From NCBI GenBank assembly GCA_902623395.1, contig CACNTN010000001.1, positions 1 to 64,000 on the forward strand: a stretch of DNA of 64,000 bases, written 5' to 3'. Source of the stretch: an uncultured Pelagibacteraceae bacterium. GTDB lineage: Bacteria > Pseudomonadota > Alphaproteobacteria > Pelagibacterales > Pelagibacteraceae. The notes beneath the pieces are model-generated. The model was not told the DNA's origin. It was given only the letters and a program-made list of their open reading frames with translations, and made no database searches. A program made the position numbers and the translations under genes. This document shows positions 42,696 to 53,850 of this stretch, one piece after another (position 1 is the stretch's first letter; each line of letters opens with the position of its first letter).

Positions 42696-43696
42696 TAGAA
42701 TAAAGATGAAACTTGATTAAATATTCTTTTCGTGAAACTAGGAATAAATTCTTTATTTTTTTCTAAAGAGTACCAATTATATGATTTTGGAATCTTGTTT
42801 GAAAATTTATAGTACAAATTAATATTAAGACTTAAATTTGAAATAGAATTTTTATAATTTTTTAAAAATTTCCAATTTTTATCTACCGAATTATTTTCCA
42901 CTTCTTTTATTAATGGTAAATTAAAATTTTTGAGAAATTTTATTTCATTCTCTTTAGTCAAAGCTATTTGTTTTTTTTTACTAACGTAACAAAAAATATT
43001 GTAGTTCATAACTTTTATTTTTTTTCTTTTATTATCTTTAATCTTATTTGATGATTTAAAATAACTGCAACTTTTATTCAAACAACATTGACTACATTTT
43101 GGGTCTTTTGGCTTACAAATTAAAGCTCCGAATTCCATTAACGCTTCAACAAAATCGGAGTTTCTGTTCGTAATAAAAAGATTTTTTTTATTAGAATCAA
43201 TTAACTGATCAAAATCTATCTTGGACTCCTTTTTATTAAGATATCTTGTGAATACTCTTTTTACATTTCCATCTAAAGCTATTGTTGGGTAATTATGAAT
43301 AAAACCCATCAGCGCGTTAGCAGTATAATCTCCTACTCCTGGTAATTTTTTTATTTCTTTTAAAGTATTTGGTAAATTAGAATTAAGTTCTTTTACTAAT
43401 AATTTAACAGATGCTAACAAATTTCTAGCCCTTCTGTAATAACCCAAACCTTCCCACATTTTTAGAATTTGAGTTTCATTAGCTTTAGATAAAGACTCTA
43501 GTGTCTTATATTTTCTCGTAAATTTTTTAAAATAAGGAATAACTGTTTTTACTTGTGTTTGTTGCAACATAAATTCACTCAAAAGTCTGTAATAAAGCTT
43601 TTTTGGTGATTTTTTGCTAACACGCCATGGCAAATTACGCCTGCTATTATCATACCAAGCAAGAATTTTTTTTGATAAAGTTGGATTTAAATGCAT
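42695..43696 (-). CDS. mutY: A/G-specific adenine DNA glycosylase
   Basis: MutY removes adenine mispaired with 8-oxoguanine. From the ATG at 43696 it has about 333 residues; an ATG at 43732 would run into the divergent gene. Catalytic Glu41 (SEFMLQQTQV), helix-hairpin-helix LPGVGDYTA (118-126) and Asp142 (LDGNV) are present. The 4Fe-4S set CKPKDPKCSQCCLNKSC (C-x6-C-x2-C-x5-C) follows. A divergent NUDIX-like C-terminal domain should follow and is lysine- and asparagine-rich here. Its first codons share the ATGCAT palindrome with the next gene. Confidence 0.94.
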   Translation of the reverse strand: MHLNPTLSKKILAWYDNSRRNLPWRVSKKSPKKLYYRLLSEFMLQQTQVKTVIPYFKKFTRKYKTLESLSKANETQILKMWEGLGYYRRARNLLASVKLLVKELNSNLPNTLKEIKKLPGVGDYTANALMGFIHNYPTIALDGNVKRVFTRYLNKKESKIDFDQLIDSNKKNLFITNRNSDFVEALMEFGALICKPKDPKCSQCCLNKSCSYFKSSNKIKDNKRKKIKVMNYNIFCYVSKKKQIALTKENEIKFLKNFNLPLIKEVENNSVDKNWKFLKNYKNSISNLSLNINLYYKFSNKIPKSYNWYSLEKNKEFIPSFTKRIFNQVSSLF

Positions 43697-44176
43697 AATA
43701 AAAATAATAATAAAACTCAAACTTTCATACAAGGGCTAAGACCTTTTGCAAGCTCAATTCCTAAAACTTTAAAAAAACATCTCAGAAAAGGTGGATATAA
43801 TTATTCTAATATCGTGGATAATTGGACAAGGATTGTTAACAAAAATATTTCAGATGCATGCTATCCCATTACGGTAAAAATGAGTAAAGAAATGAGGAAT
43901 GGCACTTTAGTACTTAACGTAGTTCATGGAAAAGAAATGGAAGTTGAGTACATGAAAAAAGAGATAATTGATAAAATAAACAGCTTTTTTGGCTACAATT
44001 GTATCAAACAAGTATCATTGAAAATTGTTCAAGATACAATAAAATCAAAAAATAAAGTTTTTCCTAAGATTAAAAACTTGCCTAAAATTGAAGAAAAAAT
44101 GGATAAAATTAAAGATAATCATCTTAAAAACTCTTTAAAAATTTTTTTGAAAGTATTTAATGAGAGAAATAAATAA
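43691..44176 (+). CDS. DUF721 / DciA-like protein
   Basis: The 161-residue protein has a DUF721 domain. IVDNWTRIVNKNISDACYPITVKM, quoted in part, matches the W..hvG..ia....P..l pattern, and GTLVLNVVHGKEMEVEYMKKEIIDKIN completes the KH-like fold. DUF721 proteins include DciA, the ancestral loader/operator of the replicative helicase. The position between mutY and dsbA-smc is typical in Alphaproteobacteria. Its ATG at 43691 overlaps that of mutY on the other strand. dsbA starts 17 bases before its stop. Confidence 0.78.
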   Translation: MHNKNNNKTQTFIQGLRPFASSIPKTLKKHLRKGGYNYSNIVDNWTRIVNKNISDACYPITVKMSKEMRNGTLVLNVVHGKEMEVEYMKKEIIDKINSFFGYNCIKQVSLKIVQDTIKSKNKVFPKIKNLPKIEEKMDKIKDNHLKNSLKIFLKVFNERNK

Positions 44177-44750
44177 ATTTTTTTATATTACTGTAATTAC
44201 TTTTTTCACCTGCATCGCGCCAGTTCAAAGTAAAATATTAAGCATAGGAAGTCCAGAAGCAAAAGTAATAGTAAAAGTTTTTTCTTCATTAACGTGTCCT
44301 CATTGCGCTAACTTTCATGGCGCAATTTTTAATAATCTTAAGAGAGATTATATTGATAAAGGTTTAGTTAAATTTGAACATCATCCCTTTCCGCTTGATT
44401 TAGCGGCGCTTAACGCTGAAGTTGTTGTCAATTGTCAAACTAACAATAATAAGAAATTTGAATTGTTAGAAGAAATTTATAAAAAGCAAAAATTTTGGGC
44501 AGTGGGCTCTGACATAAATAAAATAAACGATTTAATTAAAGAAGTTGGTTTAAACTTCGATTTATCAAAAGAAAAAATGGATACGTGTCTTAAAGATAGC
44601 GACGCCCAAGATAAAATACTGCAGCTAAGAATTGATGCTCAAAAAAAGTATAAAATTGAATCTACCCCAACAATAATTGTAAATGAAAAAAAATATAACA
44701 ATAAAATAGACTATAAGTCCTTTAAAAAAATAATTGAAAAAAATTTATAG
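44160..44750 (+). CDS. Periplasmic DsbA-family thiol:disulfide protein
   Basis: The 196-residue protein has a signal peptide (about 1-24, ending APVQS) and a thioredoxin fold with an inserted helical domain. The active site is Cys46-Pro-His-Cys49 in SSLTCPHCANFH, and the cis-Pro loop is ESTPTIIV. The CPHC dipeptide is that of oxidising DsbA-type enzymes. It would introduce disulfides into exported proteins, such as cytochrome or surface proteins. It overlaps the DUF721 gene and is followed directly by smc. No partner DsbB is in the window. Confidence 0.9.
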   Translation: MREINKFFYITVITFFTCIAPVQSKILSIGSPEAKVIVKVFSSLTCPHCANFHGAIFNNLKRDYIDKGLVKFEHHPFPLDLAALNAEVVVNCQTNNNKKFELLEEIYKKQKFWAVGSDINKINDLIKEVGLNFDLSKEKMDTCLKDSDAQDKILQLRIDAQKKYKIESTPTIIVNEKKYNNKIDYKSFKKIIEKNL

Positions 44751-47195
44751 ATGAAATTTAAACAATTAGATATTACAGGTTTTAAATCATTTTCTGATAA
44801 GACAACTTTTTTAATTGAAGATGGGTTGACCGGTATAGTTGGTCCAAATGGGTGTGGTAAATCCAATGTTGTGGAGTCTTTAAGATGGTGTATGGGAGAA
44901 AGCTCTGCAAAAAGTATGAGGGGAAGTGGGATGGAAGATGTAATTTTTTCTGGAACTTCAAATCGACCATCTAAAAATATTTCAGAGGTATCTTTATTGC
45001 TTGATAATCAGAATAAAGAAGGTCCAGTCCAATTTAAAGAATTTGATGAAATTGTTATAAGGAGAAAAATTGAAAGAGATAAAGGCTCTAAATATTTCAT
45101 TAATGATAGAGAAGTCAGAGCAAGGGACGTACAAACTTTGTTTGCAGACTTGTCGACCGGAGCTCATTCTCCGTCACTTATTAGTCAAGGGAGAATTGGA
45201 CAACTTGTAACTTCTAAGCCAATAGAAAGAAAGTCTATTCTTGAAGAAGCTGCAGGAATATCAGGAATACACGCTAGAAGACAAGAAGCAGAAACAAGAT
45301 TAAATGCAGCTGAAAATAATTTAAAGAGAGCTGATGAACTCAAAAAACAACAACAAAAGCAATTAGATAATTTAAAGAAACAAGCTGAAGAAGCGACAAG
45401 ATACAAAGAAATCTCGAGAGAGATCAAGAGAGCGGAAGCAGGCTTATATTATTTAAAGATCAGAGAAATAGAAAAAGATAAAAAAAAAATAGTAGAAAAA
45501 CTTAGTGAGCTTGAGGATGAGATTAGTGCAATAAATATCGATTATAATCATAACAACACACTTTTAGAGGAAGAAAATAAAAAATTAGCGCCTCTTAGAG
45601 ATAAAAAGATGGAAAGTGCTGCAAGCTTACAAAAAATTAATTTGGAAATGGCTAGTCTGGATGAGGAAGAAGCAAGGGTAAAATCATTACAAGAAAAACT
45701 CGAAAAGTCTATTAAAACAGTAGAATCAGACCTAGAACGAGAGAAAAGTATTTCTCTAGATGCAGATCTAAATGAGAAAAGAATTTCTAAAGAAAAAGAA
45801 GAGTTGCTAAAAACTGAAGGTCAGTTATCAAAAGTAGAATCTAATTCTTCAAAAGAACTTAAGGAATCTAAATCCCAATTATATAGTTTACAAATTCAAT
45901 TAGACGATATGCTAGATAAAATTGAGAAATATATTAAAGGAAGCAAAAAGCTTACTATGGAAATATTTTCAGAGCTAAAAAAATTGGTAAAAAAAATTAC
46001 TTCTTCACAAGAAGAATACGCTGAAAAATATGGAAAAGATAAGTCAATTCAAAGCGACTCAATTAAAAGGAAAGAAAGAATTAAAAATATTGACTTAGAA
46101 TTAGAGAATTGGAGAAATTTGAAATCTAATTCAGAAAGAATGATATTTGAATTAAGTGACAGAAAAAATAAACTTCAGGCTGAGTTAACTGATAATCAAA
46201 AAAATCCTGAAAGAATTGCAACATCAAAAGGGCAAAATCTTCAAAATTTAGAAAATACCAAAAAAAGAAATGAAGAGATTGAAAATGAATTGATCGAGGC
46301 AGAAAAAAAATATAACTCTATCAATCAAAATATTAGAGAAATTCAATCCAAACTTTCTGAATTAAAAGAAAATAAAGCTAGAAATGAAGCAACTGTGGAG
46401 GGAATCGAGAACAGAAAAAAAGATTTATTATTTTCTGTAAAAAGCGAATTAAATATTGAAAATGAAGATGAGTTACTACCTCGTTCGGATTTGAACCAAG
46501 TTTCACCGGATAATCTCCCATCATTGAAGGAACAATCCCAAAAGACAGAAAAAATTAAAAAACAAAGGGAGTCCTTGGGCTCGGTAAATCTTAGAGCAGA
46601 TGAGGAAACTAAAAAGTTTGAAACAGATATAAAAAAAATGGAAGATGATAGAGCTGATCTCTACTCAGCAATAGTAAAATTAAAAACTAGTATTGATGAG
46701 TTAAATCAAAAAGGTAGAGAGCGATTATTGGATGCTTTCACAAAAGTTAATAGAAAATTTAATGAGGTATATACAAAACTATTTAGCGGAGGTACTGCAA
46801 AAATAGAATTAGTAGACTCGGATGATCCTCTTGAAGCAGGACTGGAAATGTATGTTTCGCCTCCAGGAAAAAGATTGCAATCTATTACATTGTTATCAGG
46901 AGGTGAACAAGCTTTAACAGCTTTATCATTAGTATTTGCAGTATTTTTAGTGAATCCATCTCCAATTTGTGTTTTAGACGAAGTTGATGCTCCATTAGAT
47001 GATGCTAATGTTACCAGATTTTGTAGCTTATTAGATGAACTTACAAAGATAACAAAAACAAAATTTATAATTATTACTCACCATGCTTTAACAATGTCTA
47101 GGATGCATAGATTGTATGGAGTCACAATGGCAGAGCAAGGGGTTAGCCAACTTGTTTCGGTAGACTTACAAAAAGCAGAGGAATTGGTTGCTTAG
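44751..47195 (+). CDS. smc: SMC chromosome-segregation ATPase, short form without a hinge
   Basis: SMC proteins compact chromosomes as head-to-head ATPases with long coiled-coil arms. The head motifs are intact: Walker A GPNGCGKS (31-38), the Q-loop region SLISQGRIGQL, the SMC-specific ESLGSVNLRA (about 607-616), signature LLSGGEQ (714-720) and Walker B ICVLDEVDAPLDD (739-751). The protein has only 814 residues against about 1150 for relatives. Residues 165-605 are continuous charged coiled coil with no globular hinge and no Cys for a zinc hook. It directly abuts dsbA and precedes atpI by 9 bases. Confidence 0.93.
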   Translation: MKFKQLDITGFKSFSDKTTFLIEDGLTGIVGPNGCGKSNVVESLRWCMGESSAKSMRGSGMEDVIFSGTSNRPSKNISEVSLLLDNQNKEGPVQFKEFDEIVIRRKIERDKGSKYFINDREVRARDVQTLFADLSTGAHSPSLISQGRIGQLVTSKPIERKSILEEAAGISGIHARRQEAETRLNAAENNLKRADELKKQQQKQLDNLKKQAEEATRYKEISREIKRAEAGLYYLKIREIEKDKKKIVEKLSELEDEISAINIDYNHNNTLLEEENKKLAPLRDKKMESAASLQKINLEMASLDEEEARVKSLQEKLEKSIKTVESDLEREKSISLDADLNEKRISKEKEELLKTEGQLSKVESNSSKELKESKSQLYSLQIQLDDMLDKIEKYIKGSKKLTMEIFSELKKLVKKITSSQEEYAEKYGKDKSIQSDSIKRKERIKNIDLELENWRNLKSNSERMIFELSDRKNKLQAELTDNQKNPERIATSKGQNLQNLENTKKRNEEIENELIEAEKKYNSINQNIREIQSKLSELKENKARNEATVEGIENRKKDLLFSVKSELNIENEDELLPRSDLNQVSPDNLPSLKEQSQKTEKIKKQRESLGSVNLRADEETKKFETDIKKMEDDRADLYSAIVKLKTSIDELNQKGRERLLDAFTKVNRKFNEVYTKLFSGGTAKIELVDSDDPLEAGLEMYVSPPGKRLQSITLLSGGEQALTALSLVFAVFLVNPSPICVLDEVDAPLDDANVTRFCSLLDELTKITKTKFIIITHHALTMSRMHRLYGVTMAEQGVSQLVSVDLQKAEELVA

Positions 47196-47204
47196 ATAAT
47201 ATCA

Positions 47205-47489
47205 ATGACAATTCCTGAGGACTTTAAAACTCGCCTAAAAATTGCAAAAAAAAAATTAAAAAAACAGATTAATAGCGATGATGTAAAAAAAGGCTCTTTT
47301 ATGGGAGGTGCTTTCAAAATAGGTACAGAACTTGTAGCTGCAGTAGCTGTTGGGACAATAATTGGGTTTATTTTAGATAGTTGGTTTGATACTAAACCTT
47401 GGTTAATAATAATTTTCTTTTTTTTAGGTACGGCAGCAGGCATACTAAACGTGATACGCACTGCTAACCGAATGCAAAAAGAGGAATAA
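47205..47489 (+). CDS. atpI: ATP synthase subunit I (AtpI/AtpZ-like)
   Basis: The 94-residue protein has a charged N-terminus and two hydrophobic segments: LVAAVAVGTIIGFILDSWFDTKPW (in part) and LIIIFFFLGTAAGILNV. This is the AtpI-type layout. AtpI helps assemble the c-ring or supply Mg2+ in some species. Its place directly before atpB supports the call. It lies 9 bases after smc, so it may be read through from the smc message. Confidence 0.85.
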   Translation: MTIPEDFKTRLKIAKKKLKKQINSDDVKKGSFMGGAFKIGTELVAAVAVGTIIGFILDSWFDTKPWLIIIFFFLGTAAGILNVIRTANRMQKEE

Positions 47490-47501
47490 TATAAGGAATT
47501 T

Positions 47502-48236
47502 ATGGCAAGTAATCCAATGCAACAATTTAATGTTCATAAAATTGGACCTGAAATTAAAATTGCAGGAGTAGATTTATCTTTTACAAACTCAAGCCTGTTC
47601 ATGGTAATTAGTGCATCAGTTATATTGTTATTTTTATTCCTTGGAACCAGAGAGAAAAAAATTGTTCCAGATAAAATTCAACTAATTGCTGAAATGTTTT
47701 ATACATTTGTTGCAAAAATGATAAGTGACACAGCGGGTTCTAAGGCCAAACCTTATTTTCCTTTTATATTTAGTTTATTTATGTTTGTTCTATTTTGTAA
47801 TATGGTGGGAATGTTACCATACTCATTCACTGTAACTAGCCATATTATAGTTACTTTAATTATGGCACTTTTCATTTTTATTGCAGTTACCATCATTGGA
47901 TTTGTTAAACATGGTTTTAAATATTTAAATATTTTTGTGCCAAGTGGAGTACCAGTGGTACTATTACCATTAATCACAGTTATTGAAATTATTTCATATT
48001 TAAGTAGGCCAGTCAGTTTATCTGTAAGATTATTTGCAAATATGATGGCAGGGCATACTATGTTAAAAGTTTTTGGAGGATTTGTAATAAGTTTAGGATT
48101 ACTTGGCGGGTGGTTGCCGCTAGGTTTTTCAGTAGCATTAACTGGCTTGGAAATATTAGTAGCTTTTCTTCAAGCTTATGTTTTTGCAATATTAACCTGC
48201 ATCTATTTAAATGATGCATTAAATTTACATCATTAA
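47502..48236 (+). CDS. atpB: F0F1 ATP synthase subunit a
   Basis: Subunit a forms the proton half-channels against the c-ring. The 244-residue protein has five to six hydrophobic helices. The essential Arg lies in SRPVSLSVRLFANMMAGH, CNMVGMLPYSF fits the family, and a C-terminal helix ends AYVFAILTCIYLNDAL. It follows atpI by 12 bases and precedes atpE by 17. Confidence 0.97.
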   Translation: MASNPMQQFNVHKIGPEIKIAGVDLSFTNSSLFMVISASVILLFLFLGTREKKIVPDKIQLIAEMFYTFVAKMISDTAGSKAKPYFPFIFSLFMFVLFCNMVGMLPYSFTVTSHIIVTLIMALFIFIAVTIIGFVKHGFKYLNIFVPSGVPVVLLPLITVIEIISYLSRPVSLSVRLFANMMAGHTMLKVFGGFVISLGLLGGWLPLGFSVALTGLEILVAFLQAYVFAILTCIYLNDALNLHH

Positions 48237-49576: not shown

Positions 49577-51043
49577 ATGGCAAAAAAAATTACTGTTATT
49601 GGATCAGGTTTTGGAGGTTTGGCTGCAGCGCTAAGATTAAAAGCCAAAGGCCATAAAGTTACTTTATTAGAGAAACATCCTGATCTAGGTGGTCGAGCAA
49701 GAGTTTTTAAAAAAGGACAGTTTATTTACGACGGTGGTCCAACGGTAATAACTGCTCCATATCTTTTTGAAGAATTATTTTCATTATTTAACAAAAATAT
49801 TTCTGACTACGTCGAGATAGTGCCTTTAGATTTATGGTACCGGTTTGTTTTCAGTAATGGAGATACATTTGACTACAATGGAAATGATAAATCAATGGAA
49901 GAACAAGTTAAAAAGTTTAACCCTTCTGATTATGATGGATATAAAGATTTAGTAAATTTTACTGAAAAAATCTTCGACAAAGGTTTTACAGATTTATCTG
50001 ATAAGCCCTTTAATAATCTGGTTTTTATGATGAAACAAATTCCATCTTTATTAAAATTAAAAAGTTATAAGTCAGTCTACAGTTTAGTTTCAAACTATAT
50101 ATCTAATGAAAAATTAAGGAGAGTGTTTAGTATGCACCCTCTTTTAGTAGGTGGAAACCCATTCAGCACTACGTCGATATATACATTAATTTTATTTTTA
50201 GAAAAAAAATGGGGCATTCACTACTCTATGGGAGGAACGGGAAGTGTAGTCAAGGCTTTAGAAAAACTAATGATCGAAGAAAATATCAAAATTATTAAAG
50301 ATGCTGAAGTAACAGAAATACTCACAGAAAATAAAAAAGTCAAAGGTGTTAAAATTAATAATTCAAAAATAATTAATAGTGACTATGTGATTTGTAACTC
50401 TGACCCTCCTAATGTTTATAATAATCTAATTAAATCAAAGGGAGATTATGATTTTTTATTTAAACAAAAAATGAAAAGAATGGATTATTCAATGGGATTA
50501 TTTGTTTATTATTTTGGTTCTAAAAAAAAATATCCCGATGTTGCGCATCATACAATTTATTTTGGGGAGTCTTACGAAAAACATCTCGATAAAATCTTTG
50601 AAAAGAAAATACTTTCTGAAGACATAAGTTATTATTTACATCGACCGTCTGCAACAGATCCTAGTATGGCTCCAGAAGGCCAAGATGCTTTTTATGTATT
50701 GGTTCCAGTTCCAAACAATTTATCTAAAGTTAAATGGATCGAGGAAGGTGATAAATTTAAAGATTTAGTTTTAGATAAAATGGATAAAACTGTTCTGCCT
50801 GGCATTAAAGAAAATGTGGTAAGTGATTTTTATTTAACACCTGATTACTTTGAAATCGATCTAGCAACTCTTTATGGATCTGGATTTTCAATTCAGCCAA
50901 AATTTTCTCAATCAGCTTATTTTAGATTTCATAATCAATCTGAAATATATAAAAACTTATTCTTTGTGGGTGCCGGTACACACCCAGGAGCTGGAATGCC
51001 TGGTGTTCTTTCATCGGCAAAAGTTTTAGACAAATTATTTTAA
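49577..51043 (+). CDS. crtI: Phytoene desaturase
   Basis: CrtI converts phytoene to lycopene. The 488-residue flavoprotein has the N-terminal FAD motif VIGSGFGGLAAALRLKAKGH, GGRARVFKKGQFIYDGGPTVI (in part) and the C-terminal bacterial carotenoid-desaturase signature NLFFVGAGTHPGAGMPGVLSSAK (in part). It begins the retinal cluster crtI-crtB-crtY-blh, with a 1-base overlap to crtB. No crtE is in the window, so geranylgeranyl diphosphate must come from elsewhere. Confidence 0.95.
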   Translation: MAKKITVIGSGFGGLAAALRLKAKGHKVTLLEKHPDLGGRARVFKKGQFIYDGGPTVITAPYLFEELFSLFNKNISDYVEIVPLDLWYRFVFSNGDTFDYNGNDKSMEEQVKKFNPSDYDGYKDLVNFTEKIFDKGFTDLSDKPFNNLVFMMKQIPSLLKLKSYKSVYSLVSNYISNEKLRRVFSMHPLLVGGNPFSTTSIYTLILFLEKKWGIHYSMGGTGSVVKALEKLMIEENIKIIKDAEVTEILTENKKVKGVKINNSKIINSDYVICNSDPPNVYNNLIKSKGDYDFLFKQKMKRMDYSMGLFVYYFGSKKKYPDVAHHTIYFGESYEKHLDKIFEKKILSEDISYYLHRPSATDPSMAPEGQDAFYVLVPVPNNLSKVKWIEEGDKFKDLVLDKMDKTVLPGIKENVVSDFYLTPDYFEIDLATLYGSGFSIQPKFSQSAYFRFHNQSEIYKNLFFVGAGTHPGAGMPGVLSSAKVLDKLF

Positions 51044-51891
51044 TGAAAAGCAATTTATTAAAAAAACATGCTAAATCTTTTTATTGGGCAAGTTTTTTCC
51101 TGCCGAGAAATACTTTGGATAAATGTTCATCTTTATATAATTTCTGTAGGACCTTAGATGATATAGTTGATGATAATAACAAGCTCAGTATAAAGAAAGA
51201 AATTTTTATAAAATTTAAAAATGATTTTGAGACTAAAAATCCAAATAATAAAATTATAAAAGACATGTGGTCGATTATTGATAGTGAAAGTATTTCTAAA
51301 CAAATAGTAATAGATTTATTTGATGGAGTTGAAACAGACTTAGAGGAAAAAGTAGTTATTAATTCGAAAAAAGATTTACTTGTTTATTCTTATAGAGTTG
51401 CTGGAACAGTTGGATTAATGATGTCAAAAATACTTAAAGTTAGAAATAAGGAGGCTTGTAAAGGTGCGATTGATCTTGGTATAGCTATGCAGCTTACAAA
51501 TATTGCTCGGGATGTTTGTGAGGATAAAGCGCGTAATAGACAGTATATTGAACACAATTTTTCCTCAATTAAGGAAATAATTAAAGAGTCTGAAATGTTT
51601 TATAAAAATTCATTCAACTCTATTAGATATATACCTATTAGATCAAGATTTTCAGTTGTTGTTGCGAGACGAGTTTACAGAAAAATAAGTGACTACATAC
51701 TTAAACAAAAAAATATAGATAATTACAATAAAGCTGGCAAAATCTATGTTCCTATGTTCGAGAAAGTAATACAGACCTTTTTATCTATTTTTGATTTTGT
51801 TAAATTATTGTTCATTAAAAATTTAAATTACAATAATCAAACAAATCATAATATTTTAGAGCAAGAAATTAATTTAAATGAAAGAATTTGA
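51043..51891 (+). CDS. crtB: Phytoene synthase
   Basis: CrtB condenses two geranylgeranyl diphosphates to phytoene. The 282-residue protein has the two Asp-rich prenyl-binding motifs: NFCRTLDDIVDDN (35-48 area) and LTNIARDVCEDKARNRQYI. There is also SYRVAGTVGLMMSKIL between them. It overlaps crtI by one base and crtY by 14, so the whole cluster is probably translationally coupled. Confidence 0.94.
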   Translation: MKSNLLKKHAKSFYWASFFLPRNTLDKCSSLYNFCRTLDDIVDDNNKLSIKKEIFIKFKNDFETKNPNNKIIKDMWSIIDSESISKQIVIDLFDGVETDLEEKVVINSKKDLLVYSYRVAGTVGLMMSKILKVRNKEACKGAIDLGIAMQLTNIARDVCEDKARNRQYIEHNFSSIKEIIKESEMFYKNSFNSIRYIPIRSRFSVVVARRVYRKISDYILKQKNIDNYNKAGKIYVPMFEKVIQTFLSIFDFVKLLFIKNLNYNNQTNHNILEQEINLNERI

Positions 51892-52945
51892 TTACATAAT
51901 TATTGGTGGTGGATGCGCGGGCTTATCTTTGGCTTATGAGCTTGAAATTAATGATAAGTTAAAAGAGAAAACTTTAGCAATTATTGAAACTCGTGAGGAA
52001 TATAAAAGAGACAAAACGTGGTCTTTTTGGAAAGTTTTTAATCATAACTTTGATGATTGTGTAATTAAAAGTTGGAACAACTTTACCATAAATTCTCCGG
52101 ATAGTTCACATGAATTAACTAATAAAAAATTTCCCTATCAAAGCATCGATAGTGGTAAATTTTATAAAAAAATAAATTCTAAGCTATCTACAAATTCCAA
52201 TATAAGTTTTTTTAAAAACCTAAGTGAAATCAACTCAGAAAATTCCATAATTTTTAATAGTGTTTTTGAAAAAGAATTAGATAAATCTAAATTGTGGCAA
52301 CACTTTCAAGGTATCGAGATAGAAACGCCTAAAAATATTTTTGATGAGGAAATAATAAATTTAATGGATTTTAATTGTGATCAGAGAAATGATGTTCACT
52401 TTTTTTACACATTGCCATTTAGTAAAAATAAAGCTTTAATTGAAACAACATGGCTTTCAGATTTAGAAGATCAAAGCTTAATGGATTACGATCTTCAATT
52501 AGAAAATTACATAAAATATAATCTTGGTATAAAAGACTATAAAATAAATTTTACTGAAAAAGGAGCTATACCATTATTCCATCCATTAAATAAAAATAAT
52601 GAGAAAACTGTTTATATTGGATCTGCTGGCGGAATGACAAGGTTAAGCACAGGGTATACTTTTTTAAATATCCAAGAGCATAGTAAATATATTGTCGAAA
52701 ATATTGATAAAATTGAAAAAATAAAAATGTACAATATAGGAAAGAAATATCAGTTTTTGGATGAAATATTTTTGAGAGTTTTAAAAAATAACCCAGATAA
52801 AATGCCAAAAATATTTTTCGAAATGTTTAAAGCTTCATCAAACTGTGTAATAAAATTTTTATCTAATAAAAGTAATATCTTTGAAGATATTAATATTATA
52901 GGAAGAATGCCGAAATTAATTTTTATGAGGGCTCTATTTCAATAA
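51878..52945 (+). CDS. crtY: Lycopene beta-cyclase
   Basis: CrtY makes beta-carotene from lycopene. The 355-residue flavoprotein has the NAD(P)/FAD motif YIIIGGGCAGLSLAYEL, RDKTWSFWKVF, the active-site-like PFSKNKALIETTWLS and the late SAGGMTRLSTGYTFLNIQEHS (in part), all characteristic of the CrtY type. It overlaps both neighbours. The beta-carotene product is the substrate of the next enzyme. Confidence 0.93.
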   Translation: MKEFDYIIIGGGCAGLSLAYELEINDKLKEKTLAIIETREEYKRDKTWSFWKVFNHNFDDCVIKSWNNFTINSPDSSHELTNKKFPYQSIDSGKFYKKINSKLSTNSNISFFKNLSEINSENSIIFNSVFEKELDKSKLWQHFQGIEIETPKNIFDEEIINLMDFNCDQRNDVHFFYTLPFSKNKALIETTWLSDLEDQSLMDYDLQLENYIKYNLGIKDYKINFTEKGAIPLFHPLNKNNEKTVYIGSAGGMTRLSTGYTFLNIQEHSKYIVENIDKIEKIKMYNIGKKYQFLDEIFLRVLKNNPDKMPKIFFEMFKASSNCVIKFLSNKSNIFEDINIIGRMPKLIFMRALFQ

Positions 52946-53850
52946 TGGAAAAGATAAATTTTAAACACTCACTTATATTTTTCAATTTTTGTATTTTGAT
53001 TAGCCCATTTTACTTTATGGTAAATTATGAGCCAATAATATTTTGTTTAATCTTAATATTAATTTTAGGAATTTCGCATGGAGCATTAGATAATTTAAAA
53101 GGAAAAAAACTTTTATATTTATTTGGTTATAGATCTCTTTTTACTTTTTATTTTATATATATTTTAATCTCTATCTTAATAATTTTTTTGTGGGTATTTT
53201 TTCCTAATACTGTTTTATTATTATTTCTTGTTGTAGCAGCTTATCACTTTGGTAAGGAGGATACGGTATTCTCATTTAAAGAAAAATTTCTAATATCTGA
53301 GTTTTTGTACTTTTTAAAAGGATCGGCAGTAATTTTTGCTCCGTTATTGTTTCAGAGAGAGAAAACAAACGAAATATTTGAAATTTTAAACTTTAATGTT
53401 TTTGAGTCTCAATTATTCACTAATCAATTCTTAATAATTTTTTTGTGTTTAAGCTTTTTATCATCTCTAATTATCTCTAATAAGAAAAAGGCTGACTTTA
53501 AAGCATTGATGATAATGGATTTTTTTTCGTTAATAATATTAAATCTCTTTTTAACTCCTGTTTTGGCTTTCACAATTTATTTTTGCTTTCTTCATTCTAT
53601 AAGGCATTCAATTACATTAATCTTCGAACTAGATAAGTCTTTTAGATCAGGACTAAAGAAATTTATTAACAAAGCTATTCCATTAACTTTTGTAACTGGT
53701 GTGATGTTTTTAATAGCGGTATATTTTCTTAATAGCTCCTATAAGCTCGACGAGGCTATTTATAAAGTAATATTTATTGGTTTGGCGTCTCTGACTTTTC
53801 CGCATATATTGCTCGAATACTTGTTAGAAAAGAATGAAAAAAGAACTTAA
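52945..53850 (+). CDS. blh: Brp/Blh-family beta-carotene 15,15'-dioxygenase
   Basis: Blh splits beta-carotene into two retinals. The 301-residue membrane protein has about eight hydrophobic helices and the conserved histidines expected to bind iron: GISHGALDN near 47, AAYHFGKED near 99, and FLHSIRHS near 218. In marine bacteria it supplies retinal for proteorhodopsin. No rhodopsin gene is in this window, but the cluster strongly implies one. It overlaps ispH by 17 bases. Confidence 0.92.
   Translation: MEKINFKHSLIFFNFCILISPFYFMVNYEPIIFCLILILILGISHGALDNLKGKKLLYLFGYRSLFTFYFIYILISILIIFLWVFFPNTVLLLFLVVAAYHFGKEDTVFSFKEKFLISEFLYFLKGSAVIFAPLLFQREKTNEIFEILNFNVFESQLFTNQFLIIFLCLSFLSSLIISNKKKADFKALMIMDFFSLIILNLFLTPVLAFTIYFCFLHSIRHSITLIFELDKSFRSGLKKFINKAIPLTFVTGVMFLIAVYFLNSSYKLDEAIYKVIFIGLASLTFPHILLEYLLEKNEKRT

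Follow-up and report, generated by a model that had tools for sequence, protein, structure and literature searches.

The smc gene of the window (the whole 64,000-nucleotide stretch analysed here) encodes an orthologue of bacterial Smc that departs from the canonical five-domain architecture, and profile searches confirm, at the level of sequence, that the hinge has been lost from the Smc of SAR11 (Pelagibacterales). The frame at 44751-47195 runs without interruption for 814 residues, with the ATPase head split between its two ends.

44751 to 47195, forward strand: smc, encoding an 814-aa hinge-less Smc (ATG at 44751, stop at 47193-47195; TIGR02168)
44751 to 45245, forward strand: N-terminal half of the ATPase head (residues 1-165; PF02463, phmmer to Smc heads)
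44841 to 44864, forward strand: Walker A motif GPNGCGKS (residues 31-38), read from the sequence
46656 to 47192, forward strand: C-terminal half of the ATPase head (residues 636-814; sequence, phmmer)
46890 to 46910, forward strand: LLSGGEQ motif (residues 714-720), read from the sequence
46965 to 47003, forward strand: Walker B motif ICVLDEVDAPLDD (residues 739-751), read from the sequence

The first-pass annotation had called the head complete on the strength of Walker A at 31-38, LLSGGEQ at 714-720 and Walker B at 739-751, and this is borne out by the sequence and by the Pfam match to PF02463. Using phmmer, we found that both ends of the protein match Smc head structures, that of B. subtilis among them. 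The NCBIfam model TIGR02168 (SMC_prok_B) scores 692.6 bits against an equivalog cut-off of 567.35; its 1181 positions are covered at 2-435 and 793-1181, while 357 positions are absent, the hinge included. Together with the head motifs, the gene order and the tree described below, this score identifies the window protein as an Smc orthologue by descent. The SAR11 protein shares with the canonical bacterial Smc described by TIGR02168 the head, the neck, the arm sequence from both ends, the gene order and the partners ScpA, ScpB and ParB.

Hinge-less hairpins on SMC-like heads are also found in repair proteins. RecN is a short one that resembles SAR11 Smc in outline, and Rad50/SbcC likewise combines an SMC-like head and a coiled-coil hairpin with the lack of an Smc hinge. 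The protein might thus have left condensin work to become a repair ATPase in the manner of RecN or Rad50, and cross-matches to NCBIfam models of both do exist. We consider this very unlikely. The RecN model TIGR00634 gives 34.8 bits against a cut-off of 407.85, and the Rad50 models also fall far below their cut-offs, whereas the Smc score lies above its own. Rad50/SbcC carries a zinc-hook CxxC; all four cysteines of the window protein (35, 47, 740 and 758) lie inside the head, so that there is no zinc-hook CxxC, as the first-pass annotation had also concluded. The retention of scpA and scpB likewise speaks against a move to repair, and so does the outcome of searching the window's genome with the protein: it retrieves its own gene as the sole match at E <= 0.001, leaving no other Smc for condensin work. 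TIGR02168 gives three matches in that genome, namely the two halves of smc and one further, unlisted match. With E allowed up to 10, the MukB N-terminal model PF04310 reaches three of 42 aligned members, the best at E 0.096; at E <= 0.001 it reaches none.

The search with the Pfam hinge model PF06470 (SMC_hinge) that had been suggested at the outset gives no match in the window protein, none at E <= 0.001 among 42 aligned relatives (window protein included) and none in 61 genomes, the window's own among them. We rejected PF06470 as a lone hinge test, since it is too insensitive in alphaproteobacteria and misses about half of their Smcs. It finds a hinge in 50 of 144 sampled alphaproteobacterial genomes, of which about 106, by our count, hold an Smc-like sequence that TIGR02168 matches at better than 1e-20, and it gives no match in the Caulobacter control; several Smcs in this class sample are split over contigs, and hinge presence was left out for these. 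A separate observation from the same sample is that in 38 of the 144 genomes, by our own count, TIGR02168 detects nothing Smc-like at better than 1e-20; alphaproteobacteria may often have lost Smc completely, unless assembly gaps explain the result.

Because of this insensitivity we built our own hinge profile from 39 full-length alphaproteobacterial Smcs, a set that includes cut or near-identical copies of one gene. These 39 score at least 93 bits, partly by construction, and the independent tests are three held-out divergent Smcs (60, 117 and 120 bits) and two short-armed outgroup Smcs from outside the profile (L125 and L126; 82 and 97 bits). None of 137 Pelagibacterales proteins (120 distinct) scores above 6.1 bits (E 0.14). 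Enriching the profile with the outgroup hinges raises the best score to 8.3 bits (E 0.029), and its two best matches fall on arm residues 285-326, away from the tip. No significant match was thus obtained with the sensitive profile in the central region, where the first-pass annotation had placed any hinge it might have overlooked, and its description of an 814-residue SMC protein without a hinge stands.

The search was widened to whole genomes, in which a hinge might be encoded as a separate gene. A similar profile found all five hinge-bearing controls at E below 1e-38, four of which are rows of the profile and only one of which (G163) is independent, and in 14 Pelagibacterales genomes, with E allowed up to 10, it found nothing. 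A scan of 398 Pelagibacterales genomes, each at least 70% complete, yielded no credible hinge; we discarded the lone match (G754, E 0.038) as chance, as its frame contains three stops. The idea of a hinge encoded as a separate gene was dropped, no credible homologue having been found in either the 14 or the 398 genomes. The alphaproteobacterial hinge itself is a divergent form that ends in WRWDG, and the best match of its profile to a solved Smc chain is a non-significant one to 5h69 (E 0.057).

These searches address hinge homologues, so a non-homologous protein lies outside their reach. A separate SAR11 protein of this kind could cap both tips and supply dimerisation, which we judge unlikely: the 14 genomes lack any hinge homologue under conditions in which every control was recovered, and the tip varies strongly in sequence and length, unlike a conserved docking site.

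The region between the head halves was examined by structure prediction and by comparison among relatives.

45246 to 45938, forward strand: N-terminal arm (residues 166-396; AlphaFold helices 171-211 and 215-396)
45957 to 46655, forward strand: C-terminal arm (residues 403-635; AlphaFold helices 403-567, 592-607 and 616-677)
45939 to 45956, forward strand: six-residue turn GSKKLT (residues 397-402) linking the arm helices (DSSP on the AlphaFold model, block pLDDT 81-83)
45813 to 46016, forward strand: variable-length tip segment (residues 355-422) at the hinge position (55-141 residues in 33 Pelagibacterales rows)
45726 to 45815, forward strand: sub-tip collar, N-side (residues 326-355; conservation 0.74 against an arm mean of 0.63 in 27 f1 rows)
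46032 to 46130, forward strand: sub-tip collar, C-side (residues 428-460; top-conserved 30-residue arm windows outside the head-proximal part)

In the AlphaFold monomer model, which was built on a shallow alignment of 42 sequences, helices 215-396 and 403-567 are joined at the turn 397-402. The arms are accordingly modelled as two long antiparallel coiled-coil helices, a hairpin about 232 residues long. Confidence is higher in the arms (block pLDDT 81-92 at 321-480 and 71-92 over 221-600) than in the poorly modelled heads, where pLDDT drops under 50 in parts (pTM 0.32). In a scan of the hairpin for hydrophobic register, sums such as 793, 800 and 803 score well, but the model's own sum of 799 comes out at or below zero in the three ranges tried, which lends its exact register no support. 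For a longer relative of 859 residues (L069), the model adds helices 397-419 and 423-445 to the tip (block pLDDT 64-80, pTM 0.31), with no strand or hinge fold in that tip.

Across 27 proteins of family f1, the segment corresponding to residues 166-354 is 189 residues long in every case and that corresponding to 423-635 is 209-213, and the tip between them ranges from 55 to 141 residues. Six proteins of the sister family f2 have arm segments of 194-195 and 219 residues and a tip of 104. These fixed segment lengths, set against the range of the tip, indicate that the arm is nearly constant and the tip free. The f2 tip carries YDDxxxW in 8/8 rows listed (L176-L183), a motif not seen in the f1 rows, and the two families thus fill the hinge position differently.

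Beyond the hinge, the distal part of both arms is also lost. Counted from head to turn, the arms of the window Smc measure 231 and 233 residues; in L108, a full-length Smc from alphaproteobacteria with its hinge core at 511-615, those from head to hinge measure about 345 and 357. The missing 357 model positions are thus reflected in arms of about 231-233 residues without a hinge, as against about 345-357 residues with one in the canonical alphaproteobacterial protein.

Within these shortened arms, and leaving aside the head-proximal part, conservation over 30 residues peaks in windows that begin at 427-436 (0.76-0.77, against an arm mean of 0.63); in the f1 rows it is lowest at the tip. The matching stretches in 29 full-length alphaproteobacterial Smcs score about 0.5, near much of their arms, in a set that differs in depth from the SAR11 one. 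A coiled coil rises 0.15 nm per residue. The collar would then sit roughly 4-10 nm below the tip, and it appears to have gained importance after hinge loss; its conservation may instead be a legacy of arm structure, or serve the binding of DNA or a partner.

The short form is widespread. In a scan of named genomes, the best 80 of 148 loci were kept, all labelled Pelagibacteraceae or Pelagibacter (the basis for calling the order Pelagibacterales here), and their proteins are 811-859 aa long except at three loci: two copies cut by contig ends (L053 and L063) and one with an internal deletion (L079). In a sample taken across the order, 185 of 198 genomes have an Smc match, one of them (G292) only a weak one (E 5.2e-4). 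Complete frames among the matches listed are 798-864 aa long, and two shorter frames of 519 and 533 aa are also listed, one of which begins at base 4 of its contig; the lack of a match in the other 13 genomes is tentatively attributed to incompleteness. Smc is 880-881 aa long in the deeper f1 lineages and 863-864 aa in f2, and the hinge is absent in both. The comparison of lengths in relatives that the first-pass annotation had proposed therefore turned out in its favour: Pelagibacterales as a whole keep the short form, and no Smc of about 1150 residues occurs among the lengths listed. In a phylum-wide sample of 397 genomes, a single end-to-end match was seen only in the two Pelagibacterales genomes, among the matches listed. 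One relative's smc (L135, G021:C2:149616-152057) contains a single in-frame TAG, possibly a sequencing error.

A deletion or misassembly of a normal Smc, or its decay, could also yield such a protein, and one relative does look artefactual: L079 (4001-6283) has lost about 53 residues within its head and neck, probably through an amplification or assembly artefact. The same short form recurs in many independent genomes, including single-contig genomes of 99-100% completeness, and whole-gene dN/dS between the window smc and 13 relatives is 0.028-0.060, values that are rough because dS exceeds 1 in 12 of the 13 comparisons and is saturated in some segments. On these two grounds decay or misassembly is hardly credible, as the first-pass annotation had anticipated for decay. 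SAR11 smc is under purifying selection, and the tip is its most relaxed segment (dN/dS up to 0.27).

Gene order supports the orthology of the gene. The neighbours of smc, with names assigned by Pfam, are as follows.

43691 to 44176, forward strand: dciA-like gene (DUF721), conserved upstream neighbour (PF05258; synteny)
44160 to 44750, forward strand: DsbA-like thioredoxin-fold gene, conserved upstream neighbour (PF13462, PF01323; synteny)
47205 to 48236, forward strand: atpI-like gene and atpB, conserved downstream neighbours (PF09527, PF00119; synteny)

The string mutY (reverse strand), dciA, dsbA, smc, atpI, atpB is kept in order and orientation in 62/62 SAR11 loci tested, bearing out the earlier remark that the uninterrupted frame lies in a conserved gene order. 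Among 30 hinge-bearing loci with 1.5-kb flanks, dsbA-smc-atpI-atpB is present in 23, three of which have the whole string, and two loci have none of the smc neighbours. SAR11 smc is thus the inherited Smc gene, from which the middle was excised at the original locus. Between 42000 and 50000, an RNA scan returned nothing at gathering thresholds. After the ATP synthase Fo genes, the stretch 49577-53850 carries genes of a retinal pathway: an amine-oxidase-family (phytoene desaturase-like) gene and genes for phytoene synthase, lycopene cyclase and beta-carotene dioxygenase.

In a midpoint-rooted tree of the heads, the 15 Pelagibacterales rows from families f1 and f2 form one clade (100/99), which makes a single hinge loss on the Pelagibacterales stem the simplest inference. 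The pair L125 and L126, whose genomes (G085 and G195) we take to be HIMB59-like, falls outside this clade, with L125 on a long branch. Their Smcs are 864 and 880 aa long; they resemble SAR11 in gene neighbours and in arm segment lengths (188-189 and 209-211 residues), but the 123-129 residues between these segments hold an alphaproteobacterial hinge, scoring 82-97 bits. We therefore rejected a hinge loss common to SAR11 and the HIMB59-like genomes. The shortening of the arms of L125 and L126 to the same length class may be independent.

The partners of a condensin are present as well. The search for scpA and scpB that had been called for found both on contig C3 of the window's genome (G000), side by side (scpA at C3:138405-139052, scpB at C3:137867-138331), showing that the kleisin ScpA and the kite ScpB are kept alongside the hinge-less Smc. 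Of 15 Pelagibacterales genomes tested, counting that of the window, 14 have scpA and 14 have scpB, and both genes occur in all three outgroups; the lone miss (G247) lacks both. ParB is encoded in 8/8 Pelagibacterales and 2/2 outgroup genomes tested.

With moderate confidence, we propose that these proteins form a working Smc-ScpAB complex in which a coiled-coil hairpin has replaced the hinge and which dimerises via distal arms, heads and kleisin. The protein would be the vertically inherited Smc subunit of the SAR11 condensin. On the Pelagibacterales stem, hinge and distal arms would have been lost and the arm helices directly connected, so that each monomer would consist of a head and, as in the monomer model, an antiparallel hairpin of about 232 residues. 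The distal arms of two monomers probably pack laterally around the collar (326-355 and 428-460) and so hold the dimer together, in a manner that we liken to the rod state of a normal Smc; ATP-driven head engagement and a bridge formed by ScpA would add to this hold. The tip would be a permissive and possibly openable gate, not a tight hinge dimer. From the retained ScpA, ScpB and ParB and from the selection on the gene, we infer that the complex probably continues to be loaded at ParB sites and to organise the chromosome.

Published work offers precedents for this proposal. In B. subtilis, a Rad50 zinc hook in place of the hinge allows normal growth, and Smcs with arms of 253-267 aa support growth (PMC5344682). 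The same source gives modes of 238, 341 and 515 aa for natural prokaryotic Smc arm lengths; the mean of about 232 found here is near the 238 mode and outside the 253-267 window that works in B. subtilis. According to PMC5526789, which cites Minnen et al. 2016, arm-arm contacts help hinge-less Smc to dimerise.

Each of the three options named in the first-pass annotation (another mode of dimerisation, an open rod or a partner) is compatible with our data. The chief rival to arm-mediated dimerisation is an open clamp, in which no stable dimer forms at the tip and the two Smcs are joined only at the ATP-bound heads and through ScpAB; the resulting V or U would never close at its tip and would act as a clamp or pump, not as a closed ring. 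A tip that is the least conserved part of the arm and varies from 55 to 141 residues is unlike a conserved interface, the window Smc tip is modelled as a bare six-residue turn, and no hinge homologue was found in trans, all of which fit the clamp. However, the best-conserved distal segment of the arm is the collar just below the tip, which an idle distal arm would not need, and the arm segments hardly vary in length; it has moreover been argued that the heads are controlled by hinge dimerisation and by arm contacts (PMC5526789). We consider the clamp less likely than arm-mediated dimerisation. We give the same, fairly low probability to its wider form, that a whole order of the most abundant bacteria in the ocean folds its chromosome with Smc-ScpAB lacking a dimerising hinge, the ring being tip-open throughout the cycle; if this is true, heads, kleisin and arm zipping would suffice for loop extrusion or DNA clamping.

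SAR11 Smc can be set beside two systems known from the literature. The engineered Mini-Smc and Smc(Zh) of B. subtilis share with SAR11 Smc a shortened arm in a permitted length class, and they too indicate that the hinge fold is non-essential; however, they keep a dimerisation domain, hinge or zinc hook, which is swapped and not removed, whereas SAR11 Smc has none that is recognisable (PMC5344682). Hinge-less Smcs were reported in 2025 from marine Actinobacteria (PMC12153180). As in SAR11, these combine an Smc head and an antiparallel coiled coil with the absence of a hinge or CxxC, and they occur in an abundant marine host with no regular Smc alongside; the hosts belong to different phyla, and the likeness considered here is one of architecture (PMC12153180). 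In the accessible portion of that article, SAR11 and Pelagibacter have no occurrence (PMC12153180). Our literature search, whose scope excluded most subscription journals, gave among the papers listed no report of a hinge-less or short Smc in SAR11, Pelagibacter or Pelagibacterales.

The hinge is regarded as a part that defines SMC rings and dimerises them, and here a natural condensin across the sampled Pelagibacterales, under purifying selection, does without it and retains ScpA, ScpB and ParB. It has been proposed in print that arm length matters and the hinge fold does not; arms of near-constant length next to a tip that is free to vary agree with this. The role of the hinge (dimerisation, DNA entry or nothing essential) has long been debated, and a natural protein of about 814 residues makes it directly testable. 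Together with the 2025 report on marine Actinobacteria (PMC12153180), our results suggest recurrent hinge loss in abundant marine bacteria.
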